A program made the translations under genes and the position numbers. 64,000 nucleotides of DNA. It comes from Pseudomonas silesiensis (GTDB taxonomy: Bacteria; Pseudomonadota; Gammaproteobacteria; Pseudomonadales; Pseudomonadaceae). The notes beneath the pieces are model-generated. The model saw nothing but the letters and a program-made list of their open reading frames with translations. It did no database searches and was not told the DNA's origin. Location of the stretch: contig NZ_CP014870.1 of assembly GCF_001661075.1 (NCBI RefSeq), positions 62,001 to 126,000 on the forward strand. The letters run 5' to 3'. Position 1 is the first letter of the stretch; each line of letters begins with the position of its first letter. Positions 1 through 62,286 of the stretch are shown in pieces.

Positions 1-3000
1 AGCGCGAACTCCGGTACCTGACCGAGCTGGATCGACCCCTTGAGCATCAGCATCAATCGGTTCTTGTGCGGCTGGCAGACGCCCGTAAGGCTGTTGAAGC
101 TGATATTGCCGGGGCGATACAGATTGACCCGCACCCCACGCTCGCGAGCCCGTTCGAGGATGCGTTCAGCGACCCATTTCGACAGGTTATAGCCGTTCTT
201 GATGTAGATCGGCGGGGTCTGTGCGGCCGGCAACTCAAGGACCCGGCCATCGGCGGAAAGGGTGCTGGAAGCTGAAAGCGTCGAGACAAAGTTGAAGATC
301 TTTTTGCTGCGCCCTTCGCACAAACGCAGGCATTCGAAAATCGGTTCGACGTTGTCCCGCGCCAATGACTCGTAATCGAGAACGTGATTGACGTTGGCGG
401 CGTTATGCACCAATGCACCGTATTCCCGGTCCAGTCGCTCATGGACATCCGCGGCTAACCCCAGATCGGGACGGGTAATATCCGCCGGATAAACCCGCAC
501 CCGGCTCAGGTCCAGATGCTCCAGACGGTTCTCCCGCAAGGCCTGGGCAAAACGTTCGGCCGCCGAGTGCCCGCCACCCTCTCGCACCAGGCAGGCGACC
601 TCGCTGGCGCCCCACGCCAGCAGTGCCTCGACGATGTGCACACCGACAAAACTGTTGGCACCGGTGACGATCACCTTGTGTACATCGCCCATGGCGCTCA
701 CCGGCAAGGGCCGCACGTCCAGCTCGCGGGAGGCGTCGGCCATGGCCTGTTCGCTCAATACTTCTTCGGTGCCGGAGCCACGAACCAGCGTCGCCAGCTT
801 GCTGATGGTCGGCAGTTCGATGAAGCGGTTGATCGAAATGCTGCGGCCGAATTCTTCACGCAAGCGCAGGAGCATGCGCGACAACAGGATCGAGTGGCCG
901 CCCAGGTTGAAGAAGCTTTCGTCGGTGGAAATATCGCTGGCCGGCAACTCCAGCAACTCGGCCCAGATCGTCAATAACAAGGCTTCATCGGCACTGGCAG
1001 GCAAGCGCCGTGAGTGGCTCCCGGTGATGCTGACAGGCAGTTGCAGCAGTGCCTGGCGATCGACCTTGCCGTTGCTGGCGAACGGCATGCAGGCCAGTTC
1101 GGTCCAGGCGTTGGGCTGCATGTAATCTGGCAGGCACTCAATGGCGTGTGCTTTCAGCGCTTCACGAGCAGCGTCGGGCTGATCTTCCTGAGGCTGCGCA
1201 AGAAAGGCCAGGATGCGCCGCTGGCTGTCGATGACCACCGCCACCTGGCGGTATAGCCGACTGTCGCGCAGGCAGCGTTCGATCTCTTCCGGCTCGACCC
1301 TGAACCCCCGGATTTTCACCTGGTTGTCCCGGCGCCCGCACAGCTCGATACCTGCGCTGGTCCACTTGGCCATGTCGCCGGTGCGGTAGGCGCGCAGGCG
1401 CTCACCATTGGCCAGGCGCAGGTTCAGATAACGTTCGGCGGTCTGCTGCGGGTTGTTCAAATAACCCAGGCACACCCCCGGACCGACGATGTACAACTCG
1501 CCTGTGGTCTGTTCAGCCACCGGTTGCAGATTTTCATCGAGAATCAGCACCTGGCTGTTCGCAATCGGCGCGCCGAGGGTGCGATTGCTGTCGCCGCTGC
1601 GCAGTTGTCGCGCGGTGATCAGTACCGTGGCTTCGGTCGGGCCATAGAGGTTGTAGAGCTTGCCCTGGCGGGTCAGTTGCTCGATGACCCAGGGCTCGCA
1701 GACATCGCCGCCGGTCATGACATGATCCAGGCACTGCAATTGATCCAGCGGCAGGATGCTCAACAGCGCGGGCGGCAAAAAGGCGTGGCTCAGTCGTTGA
1801 TGGCGGATCAGTTCCACCAGTTGCAACGGGTCGCGACGTTGATCGTCGCCGGGCACGATCAGCTCGGCGCCCTGCAGCAGGGTCGGGAAGATATCGATCA
1901 GCGACGAGTCGAAACCCAGCGACGAAAACTGCAACACCCGGCTCTGCTCGGTCAGTTGCACGTAGTCGGCGTACCACGCGCTGAAGTGCGCGAGATTGGC
2001 CTGGCTGAGCAATATGCCTTTGGGATGGCCGGTGGTGCCCGAGGTGTAGAGCGCCATGCAGGGCGCATCGAGATCGGGTCGCTGGTGCATCAAGGGTTGA
2101 TCGAAACCTGCATCATCGATGTCGATGCGGCTGAGATCCAGACCGGGCATTTCGGCCGCGAGCGGATGTTGCCCATCATGCAGCAGCAACACCGCCCCGG
2201 CATTTGACAGGATGTACTGCTGGCGTTGCAGCGGATGGCTGGGCTCGAGTGGGAGATACACCGCGCCGCTGCCGAGAATCGCCAGAATCCCCGCATACAG
2301 TGCGCTGCATTTTGCCAGGCAAATCCCGATCACCACGGGTGCCGCGTGCTGATCGACCAAGGGTTGCAAACGCTGCGCAATAGCGCAGCTCAGGGCATGC
2401 AGTTCGCGATAACTCATGGAAGTACCGGCGACGTTCAGCGCCGGTCGCTCGGCGGACTGAATGAAACGTTGCTCAAGGCGCTCGATCACAGGTATTCGTG
2501 CCAGTTGCAGCAGCCTGGGTTCTGCAGTGGTATTGAGCCGATGGACGAAGGCCAGGCTTTCCAGAAACAGCAGATTCGCCACCTGTTCACAAGAGGCGCA
2601 GGTTGCGGGCGGGGCGAGCAGAAAATACTCGGCATCCCGGGAGTAACGGCTGATCAAGAGCGCCACGTGGTCCACCAGCTCTGCCACGGCTCGCACACGC
2701 AACGCCTGGCCGTTACCCGAAGGCTCATCGGCAATCGGCACGCGGCTCAGCAGTGTCGAGCCGTACAGGCACAGCAGGTCCAGCGGCGGCAGGCCTGAGG
2801 TTCCCGGCGTGCCGACGCCCAGTTGCAGGGTCACTCGCGGCACGTCGCCAAAGGAATCACCGGGCAGGCTGGTATCGTCGATCAGCAAATCGACGTGCCC
2901 TGGGGGCGGCTGCTCATCGAGGGACGTCAGCCGCCTCGGCGCATGACCCTGTTGTTCGAGTTCCTGCGCCAGGTCGATCAAGGCCTGGCTGCGTCCAATG

Positions 3001-3023
3001 AGCAGAATGTCGAGACGTCTCAT
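1..3023 (-). CDS. mgoA: MgoA/PvfC-like NRPS, A-T-reductase (3' end beyond window)
   Basis: Open reading frame from ATG at 3023 to the left edge with no stop (about 1007 codons visible), so the C-terminus is missing. After an N-terminal stretch of about 170 residues with no clear domain come adenylation motifs: LYTSGTTGHPK near residue 325, NLYGPTEAT near 455, YRTGD near 547, NGKVDR near 647. A carrier-protein motif GGHSI lies near 706, then a thioester-reductase domain (TGANSFVG near 786, YNLSKW near 945). There is no condensation domain. Known relatives (MgoA, PvfC, HamD) activate Leu/Val and release the carrier-bound product reductively. The pocket residues I align by eye (D,S,I,F,M,G,L,V,L) are mostly aliphatic-compatible, but that is inference. 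It starts 13 bases after mgoC, so co-transcription is likely. The next gene (mgoD in relatives) would lie left of the window. Confidence 0.85.
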   Translation of the reverse strand, partial: MRRLDILLIGRSQALIDLAQELEQQGHAPRRLTSLDEQPPPGHVDLLIDDTSLPGDSFGDVPRVTLQLGVGTPGTSGLPPLDLLCLYGSTLLSRVPIADEPSGNGQALRVRAVAELVDHVALLISRYSRDAEYFLLAPPATCASCEQVANLLFLESLAFVHRLNTTAEPRLLQLARIPVIERLEQRFIQSAERPALNVAGTSMSYRELHALSCAIAQRLQPLVDQHAAPVVIGICLAKCSALYAGILAILGSGAVYLPLEPSHPLQRQQYILSNAGAVLLLHDGQHPLAAEMPGLDLSRIDIDDAGFDQPLMHQRPDLDAPCMALYTSGTTGHPKGILLSQANLAHFSAWYADYVQLTEQSRVLQFSSLGFDSSLIDIFPTLLQGAELIVPGDDQRRDPLQLVELIRHQRLSHAFLPPALLSILPLDQLQCLDHVMTGGDVCEPWVIEQLTRQGKLYNLYGPTEATVLITARQLRSGDSNRTLGAPIANSQVLILDENLQPVAEQTTGELYIVGPGVCLGYLNNPQQTAERYLNLRLANGERLRAYRTGDMAKWTSAGIELCGRRDNQVKIRGFRVEPEEIERCLRDSRLYRQVAVVIDSQRRILAFLAQPQEDQPDAAREALKAHAIECLPDYMQPNAWTELACMPFASNGKVDRQALLQLPVSITGSHSRRLPASADEALLLTIWAELLELPASDISTDESFFNLGGHSILLSRMLLRLREEFGRSISINRFIELPTISKLATLVRGSGTEEVLSEQAMADASRELDVRPLPVSAMGDVHKVIVTGANSFVGVHIVEALLAWGASEVACLVREGGGHSAAERFAQALRENRLEHLDLSRVRVYPADITRPDLGLAADVHERLDREYGALVHNAANVNHVLDYESLARDNVEPIFECLRLCEGRSKKIFNFVSTLSASSTLSADGRVLELPAAQTPPIYIKNGYNLSKWVAERILERARERGVRVNLYRPGNISFNSLTGVCQPHKNRLMLMLKGSIQLGQVPEFA

Positions 3024-3036
3024 GATGTGCTCCTCA

Positions 3037-3966
3037 TTAAGCCAGGTAGTCGCCCAGGGCGTCTTGCACGCACGGCGAGTCGAGCAGTGAACTGCTGCGA
3101 AAAAACCGCACGATGTTGGCGACCAGGGGGTGATGGCGATTGATCGGGAAGGCCAGCCCCGAGACTTCGCTGTTGAGGGCGCGGCGTGCGACATCGCTGA
3201 TCGGCAAGGACTCGATCAGCCGCAAGTCAAACGACTTCTGAATGTCGTTTGTCAGGTAATGGCTGATGAACACCGGCAGGATGTGCGCGATGCATCGACG
3301 GTCGTCTTCGCATGCGGTGTGCCAGTAAATGCGTACCAGCCGCGTCCAGAAGCCGGAGTGGCGACCCTCGTCGAGCAAATGATCGGCCATCAGGCCCTTG
3401 ATCGACTGCTTGATCGTATCGTCCTTGGCGAACGCCGCGACATCCCCGGTGACGGTGTTCTCGGCGATGGCCACACAGATCAGTTCCACGGCGCTGCGCA
3501 GGTGTTGCGGTGCGAGTGCGACGGCCACTGGAATTGCCCGACTCAGTTCAATTTCACAAGGCAACCCGATCGGCGTGATGCCGGTCATGGCGATGGTCTG
3601 CTGCATGAAATCCATGGCCACCAGTGCGTGGTAGTCCTCGTCCACCACCACCGTCATGGCGTCGTAACGGCAGGCGAACGGGAAGGCCAGCGGGAAACGG
3701 TTTTTCGCGATGCTGCGGGCGGTCTTGTCGACGATCTCGGTTTCGAAGATCACCACGTCGTTGATGAATTTGTAGAGCGTCTGCACCAAGGCAAAATCGC
3801 GCTGCCCGGGGCATTCGCGCAGGAAGGTTTCGCTCAGCACCAGCGGCTGTCGGCTCAAGGGATAGATCAGCTTGTCGTCATTCTCCAGCACTCGGCGTGG
3901 GCGGGTGCGGATGGTGGCGCGGCTCTCCCAGGCGTCGGCGAAGGATTGGTAGTCGGCGGCGTTCAT
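3037..3966 (-). CDS. mgoC: AurF-type diiron N-oxygenase (MgoC/PvfB-like)
   Basis: 309 residues. It probably oxidises an amine nitrogen in the diazeniumdiolate or pyrazine-N-oxide pathway; the exact substrate is not evident from sequence. The diiron ligands of AurF can be placed with near-identical spacing: E75, E110-x2-H113, E169, H196, E200-x2-H203 (local motif HLLDEGRH). The ATG at 3966 overlaps the mgoB stop by 4 bases (ATGA), so an upstream in-frame start is rejected. Gene order mgoB-mgoC-mgoA matches the mangotoxin-generating mgo operon and the pvf cluster. The fit of all seven ligands argues for an active enzyme. Family confidence is high; product identity is inferred from neighbours. 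Confidence 0.85.
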
Positions 3967-4745
3967 GCATTCACCTCGGCCGCTGCTTCGCTTACGTTCA
4001 TGCTCAGGCGCAGGCCATCCCACAAGGCGATTCGGCTTTCCACGGCAGCGATGGCACTGGCATAGACCTCTTCTTCACGCTGCGGATCGCCATTGACCAG
4101 CCGCACGAGGAGGTTTGCTGCCGCCGGGCCATGCTCCTCGGCATCGACTTCGATGTGCCGCTGCAGGTAATAACGAAAGGTCGGTGCTTGCTCGCTCCCG
4201 ATCCCCCAATCGTCGAGAATGCGCTGGAACATCTGCGGGATCACGCTCTCGCGACCGTGCAGAAAGGCCGCGGCGACACAATGGCCCGGCGCGTGCAAGG
4301 CGGTGTGCAGGGTATGCCGCACGAACTGCGCGGCCGCCGGATCGACCTCCACACTTCGCAACGCCACGTCATGGCTGACCCCCTCCCGTTGCAGCGCCAC
4401 GAAGCGTTCCACCGCGGCCGTACTTGCACCGACCTCGCGCATGGCATCCAGATACAACTCGAAGTGGCTGTAATGACCCCGCGCCGGACGGTCATCGGAC
4501 TCTTCACCCAACACTATCTCGTTGATCAGGCGCGCAGCCTGAGGATCTCGTGGTGGTAGCCAGGGTAGTTGAACGCAGGTCAGTTCCTGTTGCAGGCGCT
4601 TGGTGAGCGACATGAAATCCCACACTGCAAATACATGGGATTCCATGAAGCGTCGAAGTGCCGAGAGTGAATGTATTTCAGCAAAGATCGGGTGTGCGCC
4701 AAGTTCTGCTTTCTTGAGATTAAGACGGTCTGTTATCGATGTCAT
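3963..4745 (-). CDS. mgoB: DUF3050 haem-oxygenase-like protein (MgoB/PvfA/HamC-like)
   Basis: 260 residues starting [10 protein letters not shown] at ATG 4745; a longer TTG-start version to 4880 is less likely. The N-terminal block ([10 protein letters not shown], then [15 protein letters not shown], then [11 protein letters not shown]) is the signature I associate with DUF3050, helical proteins with the haem-oxygenase-like diiron fold. An EES-x-D segment (residues about 93-97) and later His/Glu residues ([10 protein letters not shown]) could supply metal ligands. First gene of the operon, overlapping mgoC by 4 bases. Relatives are required for signal synthesis, but the reaction was not settled to my knowledge. 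No convincing Shine-Dalgarno precedes the ATG, only CAGG about 8 bases upstream. Confidence 0.8.
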
Positions 4746-5402
4746 GGGCGAGCCTGTAAGTGGTGTAATCAATAAGTAACCGACACCTGAAGTTTTACTG
4801 GCGAGCGAACGCCTCAAACTAATTGATGCCGGTTGGGTGTCTGTAATTCTTCTGGTTGAGGCCTGCCGGCCAATGTTCAATGGCGGCGGGGAAAAATTAA
4901 TACATAAATAAAGTTCTAGGCAAGATATTTCGATACTATTTTAAAGTTTAACTTTCTTGGGCGTGATAAGTTCCAATAAGACTTCTTGATAAAGTTTTAT
5001 TTAGGCGTAGTTGCTCCTTCCGGCTTATATAAGTCAGAATCGAAACAGAGAGTGAATGCCTCACTCGAAGCAACTTTCTAATTTAAAGCGTCAAGATGAT
5101 CTGAGGGGTGGAAGTGGGCCGGGAATGCCACTGATTCTTCCTTTCCCGTGACAAGACTCCTTCCGTTGGTTCCTGGTGCGAGGACTGCTTCGCTACGTGC
5201 GGCGCGTCACCCGTTCATTTATTCGTCGGCAGCCCAAGAGTGAGCGTAATTGAAGGCGGCCGCCATCACCGACGCATAAATGCAGTCGGTGCAATGATCG
5301 GGCAGGAAGGGGGTGGATCGAAGACGAGACTGTGCAGGGCGGGATAATCGCGGCAAGCGAAGACAAGCAATCCGGTTTGCCTGCTCAAGCCCGCCGCTGG
5401 AG
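4746..5402. promoter_or_regulatory. 657-base gap with probable mgo operon promoter
   Basis: No gene is supported here. About 4880-5060 is clearly AT-rich against a GC-rich background, as expected for a promoter of the leftward mgo operon. I could not fix a -10/-35 pair with confidence. The remainder (5060-5402) is of normal composition with only short open frames that look random. Studied mgo operons depend on the GacS/GacA system; I saw no unambiguous RsmA-type GGA hairpin next to the mgoB start. Confidence 0.35.
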
Positions 5403-6113
5403 TTACTTCGTGGTTTTGCGGTTCTTTGCCTCAGGGCTGTCGAGGTAACGCGTGATGACCACGACCGCGCGATTGAGGTGTTGTTCGAGCATCTTCACAG
5501 AGCGTTCAACGTCGCGGTCTTCCACGGCCCGTAACATCGCCCGGTGATCTTCCTGGGACAGTTTGCCCAGGCCCATGGCTTCCAGGTTGAAGCGAAGGAA
5601 GCGTTCTTCCTCGTTCAGGCCGTCTTCCACCAGCTTCAACAGCCGCCGGTTCGGTGCCTTGCTGTACAGCGACATATGGAATAGACGGTTGAGCCGACCG
5701 ATTTCGGTGTAGTCATGTTGCGTTTCCAATTCATCGATGTAGCGGGCGGCCTGTTGAAAATCCTCGCTGGTCAGCAACGGAATCGACAAGCGCAGTGCTT
5801 CGGATTCCAGGAGGATCCGTAGCGCGTAAGTTTCAACGGCATCGCCCTGAACCAGCGGCGCGACCACCGCACCTTTGTGAGCGATCACGTTGAGCAGCGA
5901 TTGGGCTTCGAGCTGGCGCAAGGCTTCGCGAACCGGCATGCGGCTGACGCCGAACAGGTCGGCCAGGTCTTGCTGGCGAAGGGCAGTGCCGCAAGGGATG
6001 CGACCGTCGAGTATGGCGGCACGCAGGGTCTCTTCGATCACCGAGCGGGCCAGATGAGCGGGAATCGGCCCACTGACCTTGATGCTGCTGAGAGGGTTGG
6101 GCTTCTGTGTCAC
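5403..6113 (-). CDS. GntR-family regulator, FCD type
   Basis: About 236 residues if translation starts at GTG 6113; a TTG at 6185 would add 24 residues. The N-terminal winged helix contains the GntR pattern LRQQDLADLFGVSRMPVREALRQL cut here into two parts (LRQQDLADLFGV, SRMPVREALRQL), followed by a helical FCD effector domain (LLESEALRLSIPLL, and a distal FHMSLYSKAPNRRLL that includes a typical FCD metal-ligand His). FCD regulators usually sense small carboxylates, often with a bound metal. The target is unknown. It lies upstream of and parallel to mgoB, 657 bases away, so regulation of mgo is possible but unproven. A perfect palindrome sits just before the gene. Confidence 0.85.
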   Translation of the reverse strand: MTQKPNPLSSIKVSGPIPAHLARSVIEETLRAAILDGRIPCGTALRQQDLADLFGVSRMPVREALRQLEAQSLLNVIAHKGAVVAPLVQGDAVETYALRILLESEALRLSIPLLTSEDFQQAARYIDELETQHDYTEIGRLNRLFHMSLYSKAPNRRLLKLVEDGLNEEERFLRFNLEAMGLGKLSQEDHRAMLRAVEDRDVERSVKMLEQHLNRAVVVITRYLDSPEAKNRKTTK

Positions 6114-7255: not shown

Positions 7256-10200
7256 TCAGCGCATGTCCGCGTATGGAGTGACCGGCTCTATGGGCATCGG
7301 CAGGTTGCCTTGCCATTCATCGAAGGTGTACCGCAGATACAGCAGGGCGCGGCTGGGGGCATAACCTTCGCTGTGTTGGTAAGTGATGCCCGTACCAAAC
7401 ACCAGATTATTGGACAACCTGCGCTCGACCAGGGCTTGCAGGCGGATGCCTATACCATTGCTGCTGCTGTCCTCCTTGGTCAGGGTGGGGTTGCTGTCAG
7501 TCGCGAATCCCGCGCCGTTGAGCCGCTCCTGCAGACTGCCGACCGGTTCGTGTGGATAAAGATCGCTGTCGCTGGTTTTCGAATAGGACCAACCGACGGA
7601 GCTTTCCAGCGTTGCCGACCAGTTGGCATTACGCCAGGCGTAGTTCAGCGGCACCCCGATTGAATAATACTGCTGCGGGCTGTAGTAACCGCCTTGCCCC
7701 AGTGTGTATTCACTCAGGTCCTTGTCGTACCCCCAGTACATCAGGGTCAAGCCGGTACGCATCCGTTCATCGGCGTTGTCGACGAGCCGGTAGTAATAGC
7801 CGCCCATGGCCGAGAGGCGCTGATTGTCCTCCACATTTTTGCCAAGTAACCGGTGTGCACCCAGGCTGGCCCAGACGCCATCGACACCACCTTCGTCATG
7901 GCTGAGGCTCAAGGTCAGGCCATTGCTGGTGACACCTCCCCAGCGAATGCCGGTCAGTGGGTCGACGGCGCCGGCATAGGACACCACCGAGTTGCTCATC
8001 GGCCGTCGCGAAGCGGTCAGGGTCCAGCCCACGCTTTGCCAGTCACTGCTGTAACTGACGCCACCCAGCCAGTTGCCGATTTCGAAGCCTTGCGGGGTGT
8101 GACCTAGATCGAAGGCCCAGGCGGCGTTCTTCCAGCCGACAGCAAGGCCGGGGCCGCTGGTGCTTAGCGACGTGCTGGGGCAGCCGCCGGTTACCAGCGC
8201 ACAGGTACCGAATGCCTCTTGATGCCGGCCATTGTCATCGGTATCGAAGCGAGTCGCTTGCAGGTCGACCTGTTCTGCCTGGACAAAGCCCTGGCCTTCG
8301 GCAAACGGTGCATCGATGCGCAGAATCGTGGTTTGCGTGGTGAGGTCGGAAATACCCGGAGCAGTGTTGTCAGTGCGCCAGGCAAAATCCTGATAGAGGT
8401 TCACACTCGGATTTTGCTGTTGGTACAGCTCATCGACATCAGCGCGCAGGCTGCGCAGCATCCAGTCATCACCGTCGTTGGCGCGGCTGGCTTCGGTCAT
8501 CGCGACGTTGTCGCGCGGGGTGGACGGTACTGATGGGGTCAAGCCGGCAGCCGCCATGCTGCGGGCATAGTTATCCAGGGCTTGTTGTGGGTTGTTCTTG
8601 GCCATCAGCCGTGCGGCGTCGCGGTAGATCAGCGGATCGGTCTGGGGGGTTTGCAGCAGTTGGGCATACAGGGCGTTGGCCTTGCCCGGTTCACCGACCG
8701 AGGCCCAGGCATTGGCCACGCGCCGTTGCCAGCCTGGCGTCGGGGCGACAGGGGGTGTGAGCTGACCCAGCGCTTCCCGGGCTTGAGGCTGGCGAGCAGT
8801 AGCGATCCAGGTCTCGATCAGCCCCAGTTGCGCCTCGGAATCCTGCGGTTGTTGCTTGAGCACCAGGCGGTAGTAATGCTGCGCCTGTGGGTAGTCTTCA
8901 CGCTGGAAAGCCCAGTCGGCCAACGTCGACAGGTCATCGACGGTTGGCTTGCGAAGCAGCAGGGCAATGGCTTCGGGCTCGTGGCCGGCATCGCGCAACT
9001 TCTCCGCTTGTGCCAGCAACTGTCGACGTTCGATCCGCGTGGCCAGGTCGCGCATGTTGTCGGTCCAGCCGGCCTTGGGAATGTGTCCCAGGCTGGCGAG
9101 TACTTCGCGGTCGCGATTTTCCGTGGACAGGTACAAGGCGTGGGCGTAGCGGGCCTCGGGGTTCTGGCCCTGACGCGATAACAGCTGGCGGAACGCATCG
9201 TCGGCGTCGGCCGGTTTGCCCAAGGCGAGCTCGGCTCCCGCCAGGCGGTAAGCAAGCCAAGGGTTATCCGGGTCCAGTACGCGCATCTGTTTGAGCAAGG
9301 GCACCAGTTGCGCCCAGTCCGAGCGCGCTGTCGCCGCATCAGCCTTCAGGCTCAGGCGCTCAAGCTGGATGCTCTGACGCAGGCCGGCGAATTCGGCCTG
9401 CTTGCCGGTGGGCAGCGTATCGAGAAATGCTTCGGCCTTCTCGCTCGACTGCGCCTGGTACAGACGAACCAGCCTTCGCACAGCGCTGGCACTGTCCGGC
9501 TCCAGCTTGCGTACCTGCAATAGCAGCGCTTCGGCAGCGATATCGTCCGACTCGGCGATAGCGACGTCACTCAGACCAATCAAGGCGTCGGTATTGCCCG
9601 GGTCGAGCGTACGGGCTTGCGTGAACGCAACACGGGCTGCCGGCAAGTTTCTCGCCTCCAGCGCCAGTGTCCCTTTTTGCAACAGGCTCCAGAGCCGAGA
9701 CGCTTGTTGAAGATCGCGCCATTTGGTGATGTAGAAGGTGTCTTGCTCAAGGCTCAGCGCGCGGCTGACGGCCTCGTTGGCGGCGGCGTATTTGCTTTGG
9801 CGCATCAGCGAGACGCCCAAGGCACCGTGCAGGCTTGGATCTTGCGGGTACGCCTTGAGTGCACGACGCAACAGGGCTTCGGCGCCAACGGGATCGGCAT
9901 CGTTTTCAAGCATGGCCTTGGCCTTGCTGCCGGCCAACCAGGCGGGATCGGCAAGCAGCCGACGCTGTTCGGCCAGCTGCCTGGTGGCTTCCTTCGCTAA
10001 TGGCGAATAGGGGTAATAGCCCGTGAATGCCTGCCAGGTCTTGGCCGTTTCGGGGCTGACCGGCAGCCTGACCAGATAGTTGTATTCAGTTTCTGCCGCG
10101 CCGGCGCTTGCCAGCGGATCCGCAGCCAATTGGTGCAGCACCGCCAAGGCTTCGTCATCCCGATCCTCGGCGAACAACAGCCCGACCAGCATCTGTCGCA

Positions 10201-10831
10201 GGCTGGCGCTGCCCGGGTAGTTGTTGTCCAGGTTGCGCGCCGCAGCGATCGCCGGCTGCCGTTGTCCGGGCAGTCGACTGCGGATACTCCAGTACTCCAC
10301 GGCTGAGGCAAGGTCGGGTGGTTCATCGCCGAACAGCTGTTCGTATGCTGCGGTGGCTTCGTCGAAGCGGCCGGCCGCCGCCAGCAAGCGCGCCTGCTGC
10401 AAGTCCCTGACACCGCTGGCGCTCTGCAGTTTGACCAGTGCCAAGGCTTGGCGCAGCTCAGGTGAGCCGGGGGCCTGCTGGCGCAGGCGGGTCAGCAATT
10501 GCTCAATCCACTGCGCGTTCATGGCCGGGTCCTGCCGGGCAGGATCGGCGCGCAATGCCTGGCGGATCTTGCCGACCAGCACCTGTGGGTGATTGGGCGC
10601 GATCAGTTCCAGGCGCGCCAGAGAGTCATTGATGAGCTCTTCACGGAACATTGCCTCGCCAACACGCATCTGCTGCAGCAACCATTGCTGTTGCGCCTGT
10701 TGCGAGCCTGGGGCTTGCGCCGCCAATGCCGAAGAACACAGGTAAAGGCTGGACAAAAGCGTGCCGCACGTCAGAAGTGATCTGAGCGTAGATATTTTCA
10801 CCGCCGTTTTTCGCAGGACTAGCCTTTGCAT
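7256..10831 (-). CDS. bcsC: cellulose synthase outer-membrane subunit BcsC
   Basis: 1191 residues. A signal peptide (to about residue 38, ALAAQAPG) precedes a long series of TPR helices up to about residue 740. These scaffold the periplasm and lead to a C-terminal outer-membrane beta-barrel (about 840 to the end, LRYTFDEWQG near the terminus) through which the glucan leaves the cell. ATG at 10831 has GGAAGGG just upstream; a TTG four codons earlier is rejected. It overlaps the end of bcsZ by 13 bases, last gene of the bcsEFGRQABZC run. Length fits the family (about 1150-1200). A REP element lies just downstream. Confidence 0.93.
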   Translation of the reverse strand: MQRLVLRKTAVKISTLRSLLTCGTLLSSLYLCSSALAAQAPGSQQAQQQWLLQQMRVGEAMFREELINDSLARLELIAPNHPQVLVGKIRQALRADPARQDPAMNAQWIEQLLTRLRQQAPGSPELRQALALVKLQSASGVRDLQQARLLAAAGRFDEATAAYEQLFGDEPPDLASAVEYWSIRSRLPGQRQPAIAAARNLDNNYPGSASLRQMLVGLLFAEDRDDEALAVLHQLAADPLASAGAAETEYNYLVRLPVSPETAKTWQAFTGYYPYSPLAKEATRQLAEQRRLLADPAWLAGSKAKAMLENDADPVGAEALLRRALKAYPQDPSLHGALGVSLMRQSKYAAANEAVSRALSLEQDTFYITKWRDLQQASRLWSLLQKGTLALEARNLPAARVAFTQARTLDPGNTDALIGLSDVAIAESDDIAAEALLLQVRKLEPDSASAVRRLVRLYQAQSSEKAEAFLDTLPTGKQAEFAGLRQSIQLERLSLKADAATARSDWAQLVPLLKQMRVLDPDNPWLAYRLAGAELALGKPADADDAFRQLLSRQGQNPEARYAHALYLSTENRDREVLASLGHIPKAGWTDNMRDLATRIERRQLLAQAEKLRDAGHEPEAIALLLRKPTVDDLSTLADWAFQREDYPQAQHYYRLVLKQQPQDSEAQLGLIETWIATARQPQAREALGQLTPPVAPTPGWQRRVANAWASVGEPGKANALYAQLLQTPQTDPLIYRDAARLMAKNNPQQALDNYARSMAAAGLTPSVPSTPRDNVAMTEASRANDGDDWMLRSLRADVDELYQQQNPSVNLYQDFAWRTDNTAPGISDLTTQTTILRIDAPFAEGQGFVQAEQVDLQATRFDTDDNGRHQEAFGTCALVTGGCPSTSLSTSGPGLAVGWKNAAWAFDLGHTPQGFEIGNWLGGVSYSSDWQSVGWTLTASRRPMSNSVVSYAGAVDPLTGIRWGGVTSNGLTLSLSHDEGGVDGVWASLGAHRLLGKNVEDNQRLSAMGGYYYRLVDNADERMRTGLTLMYWGYDKDLSEYTLGQGGYYSPQQYYSIGVPLNYAWRNANWSATLESSVGWSYSKTSDSDLYPHEPVGSLQERLNGAGFATDSNPTLTKEDSSSNGIGIRLQALVERRLSNNLVFGTGITYQHSEGYAPSRALLYLRYTFDEWQGNLPMPIEPVTPYADMR

Positions 10832-11955
10832 GAACCCTTCCAATTTGGCACCAGCCGTCCGTCTTTATCGAATCGGTAACGTTGTTCGTCCCAGCCTTGG
10901 CCGAACATCAGCAGCGAATGGTTGTAATAGGCATTGGCTAGTTCAGGCGCCTGCTGCACACGTTCTCGCTGAACGGCAGCCGCTGCGCTGGCGCCACTGG
11001 CGGACAGCAGTGGCAGCATCGCCGCGGAAAAACCGACAGGCCCGGTTCCGGTAGCGCTGCCGCTGACACTGTCCACATGCTCGGGCACATAGCCCAATCG
11101 AGCGGTTGCCTCGAGCATCGGTTTGAAATGCGCCAGCAGTTGCGTGCGACCGGGAGCGTCCTTGGCCAACATGCCCAGCCACAGGTACACACGGATGGCG
11201 TCATAGCTGCCGTCCGCACCCTTGGCGTCCGGGCTCCAGCGCTGCTCGGTCTGCCACATCAGCCAATCGGGGGCGAAGCCTTTGGGCGAGGTTTCAATCA
11301 GCATGCGCCGGGTGTTGTCCGCCAGCTCTGCCCAGACTGGCGCCTCGCTGGAAAACCGCGCGAGCAGGTGCAGTGGCAGGTAGCTTGGATTCAAGCGCAC
11401 GCCCTCGGCGGACTGGAAGCCCACGTCGCCCGGCAGCAGCATCAGCCCCAGGCCAGGCAGTTTGTGCAGGGTTTGCGCGGCGCTGCGCCAAAGCAGATTG
11501 CGACCCTGAATTTCGAGCTCCGGGCGCTGCCACAGGCGTGCGGCTTCCAGCAGGCTGTAGGCGATCCACAAATCAGCGTCGCTGGCATTGTTGCTGTCCA
11601 GCACCTGCCACTGTCCGTGCTGGGACTTGCCCCATTTCCAGGCCGGCAAATTTCGGTCCAGGTCGCCTGCGGCCAGGTTGTTGCGGGTCCAGGCCAGCAG
11701 CCGGTCGAAGGACTTGCGATCGTTGGCGACCAGGGCGAAAAACAGTCCGTAGCTCTGGCCTTCCGAGGTGCTGATGCGCTGCTCGGTAGAGCCGTCGATG
11801 ACACGCCCGTCCGCGCTGATCATCGCTTGTTTATAGCGTTCCCAGGCGGGCCACGGACAATTGTTCGCCACCGCCGCGTGGGCTGGCAGCAGCGCAAGCG
11901 CGACAGCCAGCGCCAGGCCCGGCAATGCACCAGGTGCTGCGGGCTTACTCTTCAT
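10819..11955 (-). CDS. bcsZ: periplasmic endo-1,4-beta-glucanase BcsZ (GH8)
   Basis: 378 residues with a signal peptide ending near ALLPAHAAVA. Mature sequence begins NNCPWPAWERYKQAM, typical of GH8 cellulases of bcs operons. The probable acid catalyst is E65 in STSEGQSYG; the motif SYDAIRVYLWLGM (around residue 245) carries the second carboxylate. BcsZ trims nascent cellulose in the periplasm and tunes polymer yield. The start overlaps bcsB by 11 bases; the end overlaps bcsC by 13 bases, so translation is probably coupled. Length is normal. Confidence 0.93.
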   Translation of the reverse strand: MKSKPAAPGALPGLALAVALALLPAHAAVANNCPWPAWERYKQAMISADGRVIDGSTEQRISTSEGQSYGLFFALVANDRKSFDRLLAWTRNNLAAGDLDRNLPAWKWGKSQHGQWQVLDSNNASDADLWIAYSLLEAARLWQRPELEIQGRNLLWRSAAQTLHKLPGLGLMLLPGDVGFQSAEGVRLNPSYLPLHLLARFSSEAPVWAELADNTRRMLIETSPKGFAPDWLMWQTEQRWSPDAKGADGSYDAIRVYLWLGMLAKDAPGRTQLLAHFKPMLEATARLGYVPEHVDSVSGSATGTGPVGFSAAMLPLLSASGASAAAAVQRERVQQAPELANAYYNHSLLMFGQGWDEQRYRFDKDGRLVPNWKGSCKG

Positions 11956-60366: not shown

Positions 60367-62286
60367 ATGTCTGCTACCTATCGCGCTGCTCTGCGCGCAT
60401 CGCTGCTTTACCTTCTGGTTTCAATAGCCTGGCTGCAATTGAGTGCTCATTTATTGAGCAGTTTCTTCGATAGCTCCGAGGCATTGCAGCGATGGCAACT
60501 GATCAACGGTTACGCGTGGGTCGTGTTTAGCGCCGGGTTGATCTTCCTGGCTCGGGCGCGTTTGTTCCATAGCGTGGGGATCGGTGCCAGGTTGCGTGAG
60601 CGCAGCGAAGACCGGCAACGCTTGCGTCAGGCGGCTGCGGTGTTCGATTGCACCCGTGAAGGGGTGCTGGTCACCGACAGCAATGGACTGATTGTCCATG
60701 TGAATCGGGCGTTCATGGAAATCACCGGGTACCCGTGTGAGGAAGTGCTGGGCCAGCGACCGAACATGTTCAAGTCGGGCCATCACCCACCAGACTTTTA
60801 CCAGGCGATGTTCGCGACACTCAATAGCGTCGGCGAGTGGAGCGGGGAAATCTGGAACCGGCGCAAATGCGGCGAGATCTACCCGCAATGGCAGACGATC
60901 CGCATCATTCACGACGATCAGGGACGGCTCAGCCAATACGTGGCAGTGTTTTCCGACATCAGCGCGATCAAGAACTCTGAACATGAACTCAAGCACCTTG
61001 CTCACCATGACCCGCTGACCGATCTGCCCAACCGCTTGCTGTTCACCGACCGCACCGAACAGGCGCTGGCTTCGGCGCAGATTCACAAGCGGGGTTGTGC
61101 GTTACTGCTGATCGATCTGGATCATTTCAAGATGATCAACGACAGCCTCGGGCACACGATCGGTGATCAGTTGCTCAAAGCTGTGGCCGAGCGTTTGCAA
61201 GCCCTGTTCGGCCAGGAAATTACCCTGGCGCGGCTGGGCGGCGATGAATTCGCCGTGCTGGCCGAAAACTGTCCACAGTTGATGCAGGCCGCAGCGCTGG
61301 CGCAGCGGATTATCGATGATTTCAGGCAGCCGTTCCTGATCGACGGGCATCAGCTGTTTATCAATACCAGCATCGGTATCAGTCTGTTTCCCGGCGACGC
61401 CTTGAGTGCCGAACAGCTGTTGCGCAACGCCGACTCGGCGCTGTTCAAGGCCAAAGGTGCGGGTCGCGATGGCTACGCCCTTTACACCGAAGAGCTGACC
61501 GCCCACGCCCAGCAACGGGTCGCGACTGCGGTTGAGCTGCGCCGTGCGCTGGAGCAGCAGGAACTGCGCGTGTATTACCAGCCGGTTCACGACCTCAGGA
61601 CCCGTCGCCTGGTTGGTGTTGAGGCGCTGGTGCGCTGGGAGCATCCGCAGCGTGGGCTGGTGTCGCCGGCGGAATTCATTCCCATTGCCGAACGCACCGG
61701 ATTGATCGCCCAAATCGATGCCTGGGTGATGCAACAGGCTTGTCAGCAAATGTGCCAGTGGCTGCAGGCCGGTGTGGCGTTGTCGTTTGTCGCGGTGAAT
61801 GTTTCCTCGCGGTTGTTCGCTCGCCGTGAGCTGTTTCAGCAGGTGGCAAAAATACTGCACGAAACCGGGCTCGATCCGGCCTGCCTGGAACTGGAAGTCA
61901 CCGAAAGTGCGGTGATGGAAGACCCTGAAGTGGCCTTGGAGCAGATGCATCGAATGCGCGAACTGGGTGTGCGGCTGGCCATCGATGACTTTGGTACCGG
62001 GTATTCGTCGTTACTGCGTCTTAAACGATTGCCGGTGCAGAAGCTGAAGATCGATCAGGGATTTGTCGCCGGGTTGCCGTGGGATGAGGATGACGCGGCG
62101 ATTGTGCGGGTGATCATTGCCTTGGCGCAGAGCATGGGGATGCAGGTGCACGCCGAAGGGATTGAACAGGTCGAGCAGGCGGGGTTCCTGCTTGAGCACG
62201 GTTGCGATCTGGGGCAGGGGTATTGGTTCGGCAGACCGGTGCCGGCTGGGCAGCTGGACTGGATGCGGATGCCGGAAATCCGCTAG
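60367..62286 (+). CDS. PAS-GGDEF-EAL protein with two membrane helices
   Basis: 639 residues from ATG 60367; ATG 60355 sits too close (1 base) to AAGGGA. Two membrane helices (about 10-35, 47-65), a PAS domain (GVLVTDSNGLIVHVNRAFMEITGY as LVTDSNGLIVHVNRAF), a GGDEF domain with intact LGGDEFAVL, and an EAL domain with GVEALVRWEHP, VNVSSRL, TESAVMED, DDFGTGYSSL and the QGYWFGRP end. All EAL metal ligands look present, so it probably hydrolyses c-di-GMP. Homologous in position to P. aeruginosa PA0285 (PipA). TATAAT at 60329-60334 may be its -10. Confidence 0.92.
   Translation: MSATYRAALRASLLYLLVSIAWLQLSAHLLSSFFDSSEALQRWQLINGYAWVVFSAGLIFLARARLFHSVGIGARLRERSEDRQRLRQAAAVFDCTREGVLVTDSNGLIVHVNRAFMEITGYPCEEVLGQRPNMFKSGHHPPDFYQAMFATLNSVGEWSGEIWNRRKCGEIYPQWQTIRIIHDDQGRLSQYVAVFSDISAIKNSEHELKHLAHHDPLTDLPNRLLFTDRTEQALASAQIHKRGCALLLIDLDHFKMINDSLGHTIGDQLLKAVAERLQALFGQEITLARLGGDEFAVLAENCPQLMQAAALAQRIIDDFRQPFLIDGHQLFINTSIGISLFPGDALSAEQLLRNADSALFKAKGAGRDGYALYTEELTAHAQQRVATAVELRRALEQQELRVYYQPVHDLRTRRLVGVEALVRWEHPQRGLVSPAEFIPIAERTGLIAQIDAWVMQQACQQMCQWLQAGVALSFVAVNVSSRLFARRELFQQVAKILHETGLDPACLELEVTESAVMEDPEVALEQMHRMRELGVRLAIDDFGTGYSSLLRLKRLPVQKLKIDQGFVAGLPWDEDDAAIVRVIIALAQSMGMQVHAEGIEQVEQAGFLLEHGCDLGQGYWFGRPVPAGQLDWMRMPEIR

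Follow-up and report, generated by a model that had tools for sequence, protein, structure and literature searches.

Introduction

Diazeniumdiolate signals control virulence and secondary metabolism in strains of Pseudomonas and Burkholderia. In the excerpts of the literature cited here, leudiazen requires the mgo operon (PMC8473136), carried as mgoBCAD by Pseudomonas syringae pv. syringae UMAF0158; Pseudomonas entomophila carries pvfA-D, associated with the PVF autoinducers (PMC10194917); and Burkholderia cenocepacia carries hamABCDE, associated with valdiazen and fragin, with extra hamB, hamF, and hamG (PMC11659414, PMC5878181). No receptor of a diazeniumdiolate signal is named in those excerpts, and PMC10194917 defers the matter to future studies. 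Here, we report an mgoBCAD operon and, upstream of it, a conserved element that is probably a structured RNA, in a 64,000-nucleotide (nt) stretch of the genome of the soil bacterium Pseudomonas silesiensis (the window; bases 62001-126000 of the single contig NZ_CP014870.1, 6,823,539 bases). Positions are those of the window unless the contig is named. We consider it quite probable that the two belong together as a leudiazen-type operon and a conserved upstream RNA that controls its expression, the product, the chemistry, and the transcription and function of the RNA being what we infer from the comparisons below. The RNA, which accompanies the operon in 131 of 298 Pseudomonas genomes, is a definite and readily testable candidate for the control step.

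Results and discussion

The operon lies on the minus strand and shares with P. syringae UMAF0158 the four-gene order, the GntR gene upstream, and the rRNA genes downstream; with P. entomophila pvf it shares the gene set and a proposed signaling role (PMC10194917). The first gene, mgoB (3963..4745; pvfA/hamA-like), encodes a DUF3050 heme-oxygenase-like protein of 260 amino acids (aa) (PF11251, 297.5 bits), followed by mgoC (3037..3966; pvfB/hamC-like), encoding an AurF-type diiron N-oxygenase of 309 aa (PF11583, 57.5 bits), and mgoA (1..3023, start at 3023; pvfC/hamD-like), encoding an adenylation-thiolation-reduction (A-T-R) nonribosomal peptide synthetase (NRPS). A first-pass annotation of the window had proposed this order and these three assignments, together with an ATGA overlap of mgoB and mgoC (3963-3966) and a 13-base gap between mgoC and mgoA (3024-3036), and Pfam domains and coordinates bore it out throughout. 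It had also described the operon as running off the left edge and called for extension toward mgoD. The window edge proved to be the sole cut: mgoA is completed by 397 bases beyond it (3' end at contig 61604; 1,139 aa in full, with AMP-binding, PP-binding, and NAD_binding_4 domains), and mgoD follows (contig 61108-61575, window -892 to -425; 155 aa; PF10604, polyketide-cyclase-like, 59.1 bits).

All seven proposed diiron ligands (E75, E110, H113, E169, H196, E200, and H203) are present in MgoC and read EEHEHEH here and in each of the 207 loci in which all seven were readable. The structure model of MgoB matches 9vwb, a structure titled HamA, and has the heme-oxygenase-like fold of HamA. Identity to the B. 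cenocepacia ham cluster, over the matched parts, is 51% (MgoB), 52% (MgoC), 44% (MgoA), and 49% (MgoD). Against NCBIfam, the four operon proteins gave no equivalog over cut-off, and only two NRPS domain models matched. The initial assignment of the operon to mgo/pvf/ham is supported by its genes and their order, by the domains and metal ligands, and by the identity to ham. The genome thus almost certainly holds a complete and intact mgo-type signal operon, as judged from its sequence, and this operon is an ordinary, common member of an already described family. By MgoC, the nearest named relatives are Pseudomonas fluorescens isolate PS833 (97%) and P. lini CC269 (96%), among named records that may omit those closest to the window; on this basis, the strain is placed in the P. 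fluorescens group, unlike P. syringae.

Far upstream of mgoB, a conserved block was seen in an alignment of 106 upstream regions; it contains an element that was absent from the claims of the first-pass annotation. A covariance model built from 69 distinct sequences (this strain included) matched it at 4980..5084 on the minus strand (96.3 bits). The predicted fold is a three-way junction. A closing helix, P1, has its 5' strand at 5067..5075 and its 3' strand at 5009..5017 (both from single-sequence folds and strand-pair energies); it encloses a hairpin P2, GAGUGA-GGCAU-UCACUC (5050..5066; from covariation), and a hairpin P3, UUCUG..CGGAA (5018..5039; from consensus fold and covariation). An A+U-rich hairpin, P4, is weakly predicted 3' of the junction (4975..5001), outside the RNAalifold consensus fold. 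In distant relatives, P2 is still a 17-nt hairpin in which both sides change and the GGCAU loop is mostly kept.

RNAalifold predicted P2 and P3, with 6 of their 13 pairs changed on both sides. Among 894 cells of these pairs, 98.4% are paired (shuffled mean, 91.6%), 93 are doubly changed (27.9 shuffled), and the covariation score is 0.314 (0.176 shuffled), none of 500 shuffles reaching any of these values; the structure was derived from the same alignment, so part of the contrast is expected, and the shuffles ignore kinship. Sliding the partner lowers pairing to 32.7-58.5%. By cell, there are 792 Watson-Crick, 88 G.U, 6 A.C, and 8 other combinations (22 G.U when a nearly constant U.G pair of P3, kept in 66 of the 69 sequences, is set aside). 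These G.U exceptions would read A.C on the opposite strand, which argues for an RNA on the mgo strand.

P1 formed around P2 and P3 in 13 of 14 single-sequence folds (L184 without P3) and in 5 of 6 of another set; in L178, a P. syringae-like locus, it appears in the centroid fold only and not in the lowest-energy fold. Its strands co-change between clades (AGUUGCU/AGCAACU, GCGCAAC/GUUGCGC, and AGUGCUCC/GGAGCACU). The 105 distinct strand pairs average -11.1 kcal/mol as they occur and -8.2 kcal/mol when partners are permuted (standard deviation, 0.2; 0 of 200 permutations as good). Seven representatives that differ from one another by 4 or more of 10 letters average -12.1 and -8.2 kcal/mol, respectively (20 of 20,000 permutations as good), and 4 of the 7 prefer their own partner over all others. 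Folding z-scores are -2.61 for this strain, -3.31 (L174), -4.28 (L116), -3.47 (L180), and -3.09 (L121), and two neighboring stretches of the window gave +1.40 and -1.27. Taken together, the covariation and energies make it very probable that the three-way-junction fold is real. Three-way junctions with one closing helix occur in several cis-regulatory RNAs, yet no family of Rfam 15 matches window 4600-5500 at an E value up to 1. The element would therefore be a structured RNA with a well-supported fold that is new with respect to Rfam 15.

The distribution of the element ties it to mgo. Of 298 Pseudomonas genomes, 181 have a DUF3050 gene (counted alone, not as part of a whole operon), as do 30 of a class-wide sample of 369. 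With the stricter match filters applied to searches over more than 40 genomes, the RNA model found one match each in 131 of the 298 (by hand count, 69 had supplied the model and 62 had not). All 131 lie upstream of the DUF3050 match on the same strand, with a gap of 235-387 nt (median, 292; end of model match to start of DUF3050 match), and the 117 Pseudomonas genomes lacking DUF3050 gave none. In a set of 100 loci from the genus (96 genomes), 80 matched at E values up to 1, of which 68 had supplied the model. This genome holds a single copy. Across the 369 class genomes, the model found this genome and one weak match (E value, 0.058), so that the element was not convincingly found in the other 368; the B. 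cenocepacia ham locus (L270) gave no match to the element (R1) at E values up to 10. L178 carries the element together with the A-domain code discussed below, and the excerpts of the P. syringae mgo literature mention no RNA. The element could serve as a sequence tag to separate operon types.

Given this strict link, a role in control of the mgo operon is favored, and action in cis is somewhat more probable than not. On the operon strand, the RNA would run from a segment containing AAGGAG through the junction of P1, P2 (loop GGCAU), and P3 and, as a short transcript or distal leader, would control operon expression. The AAGGAG lies at 5157..5162 (minus strand), usually 95-100 nt 5' of P2 across relatives; of 160 unique upstream regions, 155 have AAGGA[GC] at 60-140 nt 5' of P2 (8 when shuffled), and in other clades it often falls in a hairpin loop (by eye), as in RsmA-type sites. 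A further motif, [GC]C[AT][CA]ACTC, marks the 5' edge of the conserved block (5234..5246, minus strand); 112 of the 160 regions (10 when shuffled) have it no farther than 230 nt 5' of P2. A riboswitch would lie in the leader of the gene under its control; the element stands upstream of mgoB and on its strand in all 131 cases, yet 5' of the point where transcription was mapped to begin in P. syringae. There, a single start was located by rapid amplification of cDNA ends (5'RACE) about 250-260 nt upstream of mgoB (PMC3298696). In L178, the model match ends 348 nt upstream of mgoB, and some 90 nt separate the element from the mapped start downstream of it; we take this locus for P. syringae because the published promoter string is present at the published spacing. 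The element consequently appears to lie 5' of the main mgo start site; it could be transcribed on its own as a short RNA or form the leader of a second, conditional promoter. In this strain, the distance from element to mgoB is about 110 nt shorter than in P. syringae. At the position of the P. syringae start lies a promoter-like stretch, TTGCC..TATTAAT (4896..4923, minus strand; conservation by eye), 3' of the element and kept in the clades viewed (the P. syringae-like clade fell outside this view).

Several results weigh against a conserved RNA that controls the operon. Under the strict filters, 50 of the 181 DUF3050 genomes have no model match, among them a clade with MgoB 61-66% identical (L113, L114, L127-L130, L207-L210, L212, and L213) that keeps the GntR gene. 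Two of the five covariation measures are not clearly beyond their controls: pairs with double changes (6 against 4.5; 34 of 500 shuffles) and further pair types (16 against 15.0; 100 of 500). The element of this strain folds moderately better than its shuffles (z-score, -2.61), that of L178 weakly so (-1.09), and the 81 nt just upstream fold worse than shuffled sequence (+1.40). A consensus scan listed no sigma-70 site, the promoter-like stretch included. The single P. syringae start counts here too, as does a negative reverse transcription-PCR across ORF2-mgoB in that species (PMC3298696); the latter speaks against read-through from ORF2 and does not bear on the element itself.

The best-placed alternative, possible but clearly less favored than control in cis, is an independent small RNA that works in trans, for instance on RsmA/RsmE-type proteins to which it binds, and is no more than a neighbor of the operon. 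The position upstream of the mapped start and the recurrent AAGGA[GC] agree with it, as does the Gac control of mgo reported for P. syringae in an excerpt (PMC3945005); Gac control and the AAGGAG segment would fit RsmA-type binding. It is opposed by the 131 matches that all stand beside a DUF3050 gene and by their absence from genomes lacking one. Moreover, the GGA letters within the junction are paired, and no Rfam family matches at E values up to 1. After P4, no terminator is visible by eye; in window 4700-5420, P2 alone is listed as terminator-like on the operon strand.

That the pairing is dyad symmetry, in a DNA operator, a promoter-upstream element, or a terminator-like hairpin, is improbable. 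In its favor, the 17 bp of P2 are nearly palindromic and unchanged in 101 of 106 close relatives, the other 5 differing in the loop only; with its tail, P2 is called terminator-like by the scan (2 sites found, 0.7 expected), and promoter-like sequence lies downstream. Dyad symmetry is at odds with covariation in three helices whose exceptions are G.U on one strand rather than A.C, with the retained U.G pair of P3, and with the two helices that stand between the strands of P1; by eye, some clades lack the T-rich tail of P2.

As for what a cis-acting RNA would respond to, a junction RNA beside an autoinduced signal operon would fit sensing. It is a long shot that the RNA is the missing sensor of the system and raises mgo expression upon binding either an intermediate of the pathway or the diazeniumdiolate of the operon itself, perhaps complexed with a metal; if it is, RNA rather than a protein would be what reads a quorum-sensing signal.

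The product was considered through the A domain of MgoA. The pocket letters D, S, I, F, M, G, L, V, and L of the first-pass annotation were found at D372, S373, I376, F415, M436, G438, L459, V467, and L468, positions that presumably correspond to those of PheA, whose numbering we assumed. Its suggestion that the pocket might differ from known activators did not hold: DSIFMGLVL is shared by 106 of the 160 loci in which all nine letters are readable, including L178 and the relative L218. DALF[IV]GIVL or DALFVGIIL occurs in 37 of the 160, and other codes occur in 17 (16 beginning with DS, one with DA); four near relatives of L178 (L175, L177, L183, and L189) have DSIFVGLVL. The comparison that the annotation had proposed places this pocket with the P. 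syringae-like MgoA code and apart from the HamD-like protein of B. cenocepacia (DALFVGIVL) and the valine subclass DALF[IV]GIVL. PvfC uses valine, and the pocket reported here falls in the other class. HamD loads L-valine (PMC11659414, PMC12838280). Since the code equals that of the P. syringae-like MgoA and not that of HamD, leudiazen is probably the product. MgoA would load an amino acid, most likely leucine; MgoC would hydroxylate its nitrogen; MgoB and/or MgoD would assist in forming the N-N bond; and an aldehyde, released by the R domain, would become the diazeniumdiolate. Set against leucine is a report, also in excerpt, that signature sequences failed to predict the MgoA substrate (PMC3945005). 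A valine-derived product instead, either valdiazen or a (dihydro)pyrazine N-oxide, is unlikely: homologous gene sets make valdiazen in B. cenocepacia, pyrazine N-oxides are linked to pvf genes (PMC11659414, PMC5878181), and A domains can be promiscuous, but the pocket is that of L178 and not that of Burkholderia or the DALF[IV]GIVL loci, and an excerpted survey of related Pseudomonas strains predicts leucine for this cluster (PMC8719888). In L063, no frame is open throughout mgoA; the gene looks broken or misassembled.

The upstream neighbor (5403..6113, minus strand) encodes a GntR/FCD regulator, the ORF2 of the P. syringae papers, already published as a frequent mgo neighbor (PMC5878181, PMC3298696). 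In all 80 named relatives it stands upstream of mgo (at a distance of 0.6-1.5 kb to mgoB), as it does in 29 of the 30 loci L003-L032 (this one included) and in 18 of the 20 loci L113-L132, and it is 1.2-1.7 kb away in L126, L131, and L132. In L093, L100, and L112, the gap to mgoB is about 1.5 kb instead of 0.6-0.8 kb, possibly through an insertion. That this protein is the signal receptor and acts on the upstream region is very unlikely: its constant position, three kept histidines (which we take to resemble those of metal-binding FCD domains), and the chelation of metals by diazeniumdiolates speak for it, but a GntR relative (E value up to 1e-60) is more widespread than DUF3050 (240 against 181 of 298 genomes) and some of the mgo-adjacent copies contain a stop. 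Moreover, mangotoxin was still made by the ORF2 mutant of P. syringae, although Pmgo was active in that mutant at 22 and not at 28 degrees (PMC3298696). Because of this wider occurrence and the mutant phenotype, the GntR gene is the weaker candidate for control.

Left of the window, a 16S-23S-5S rRNA operon (L002 1-4727, plus strand) faces mgoD and ends about 1.4 kb from it; in P. syringae, the 5S gene follows mgoD (PMC3298696). Several draft contigs of relatives stop near mgo, perhaps because of the adjoining rRNA genes. On the other side, a C4 antisense RNA (RF01695; 6719-6815, plus strand; 54.7 bits, cut-off 45) lies between the GntR gene and a long open reading frame (7256-10843, minus strand; 1,195 aa), which presumably encodes a protein resembling cellulose synthase subunit C.

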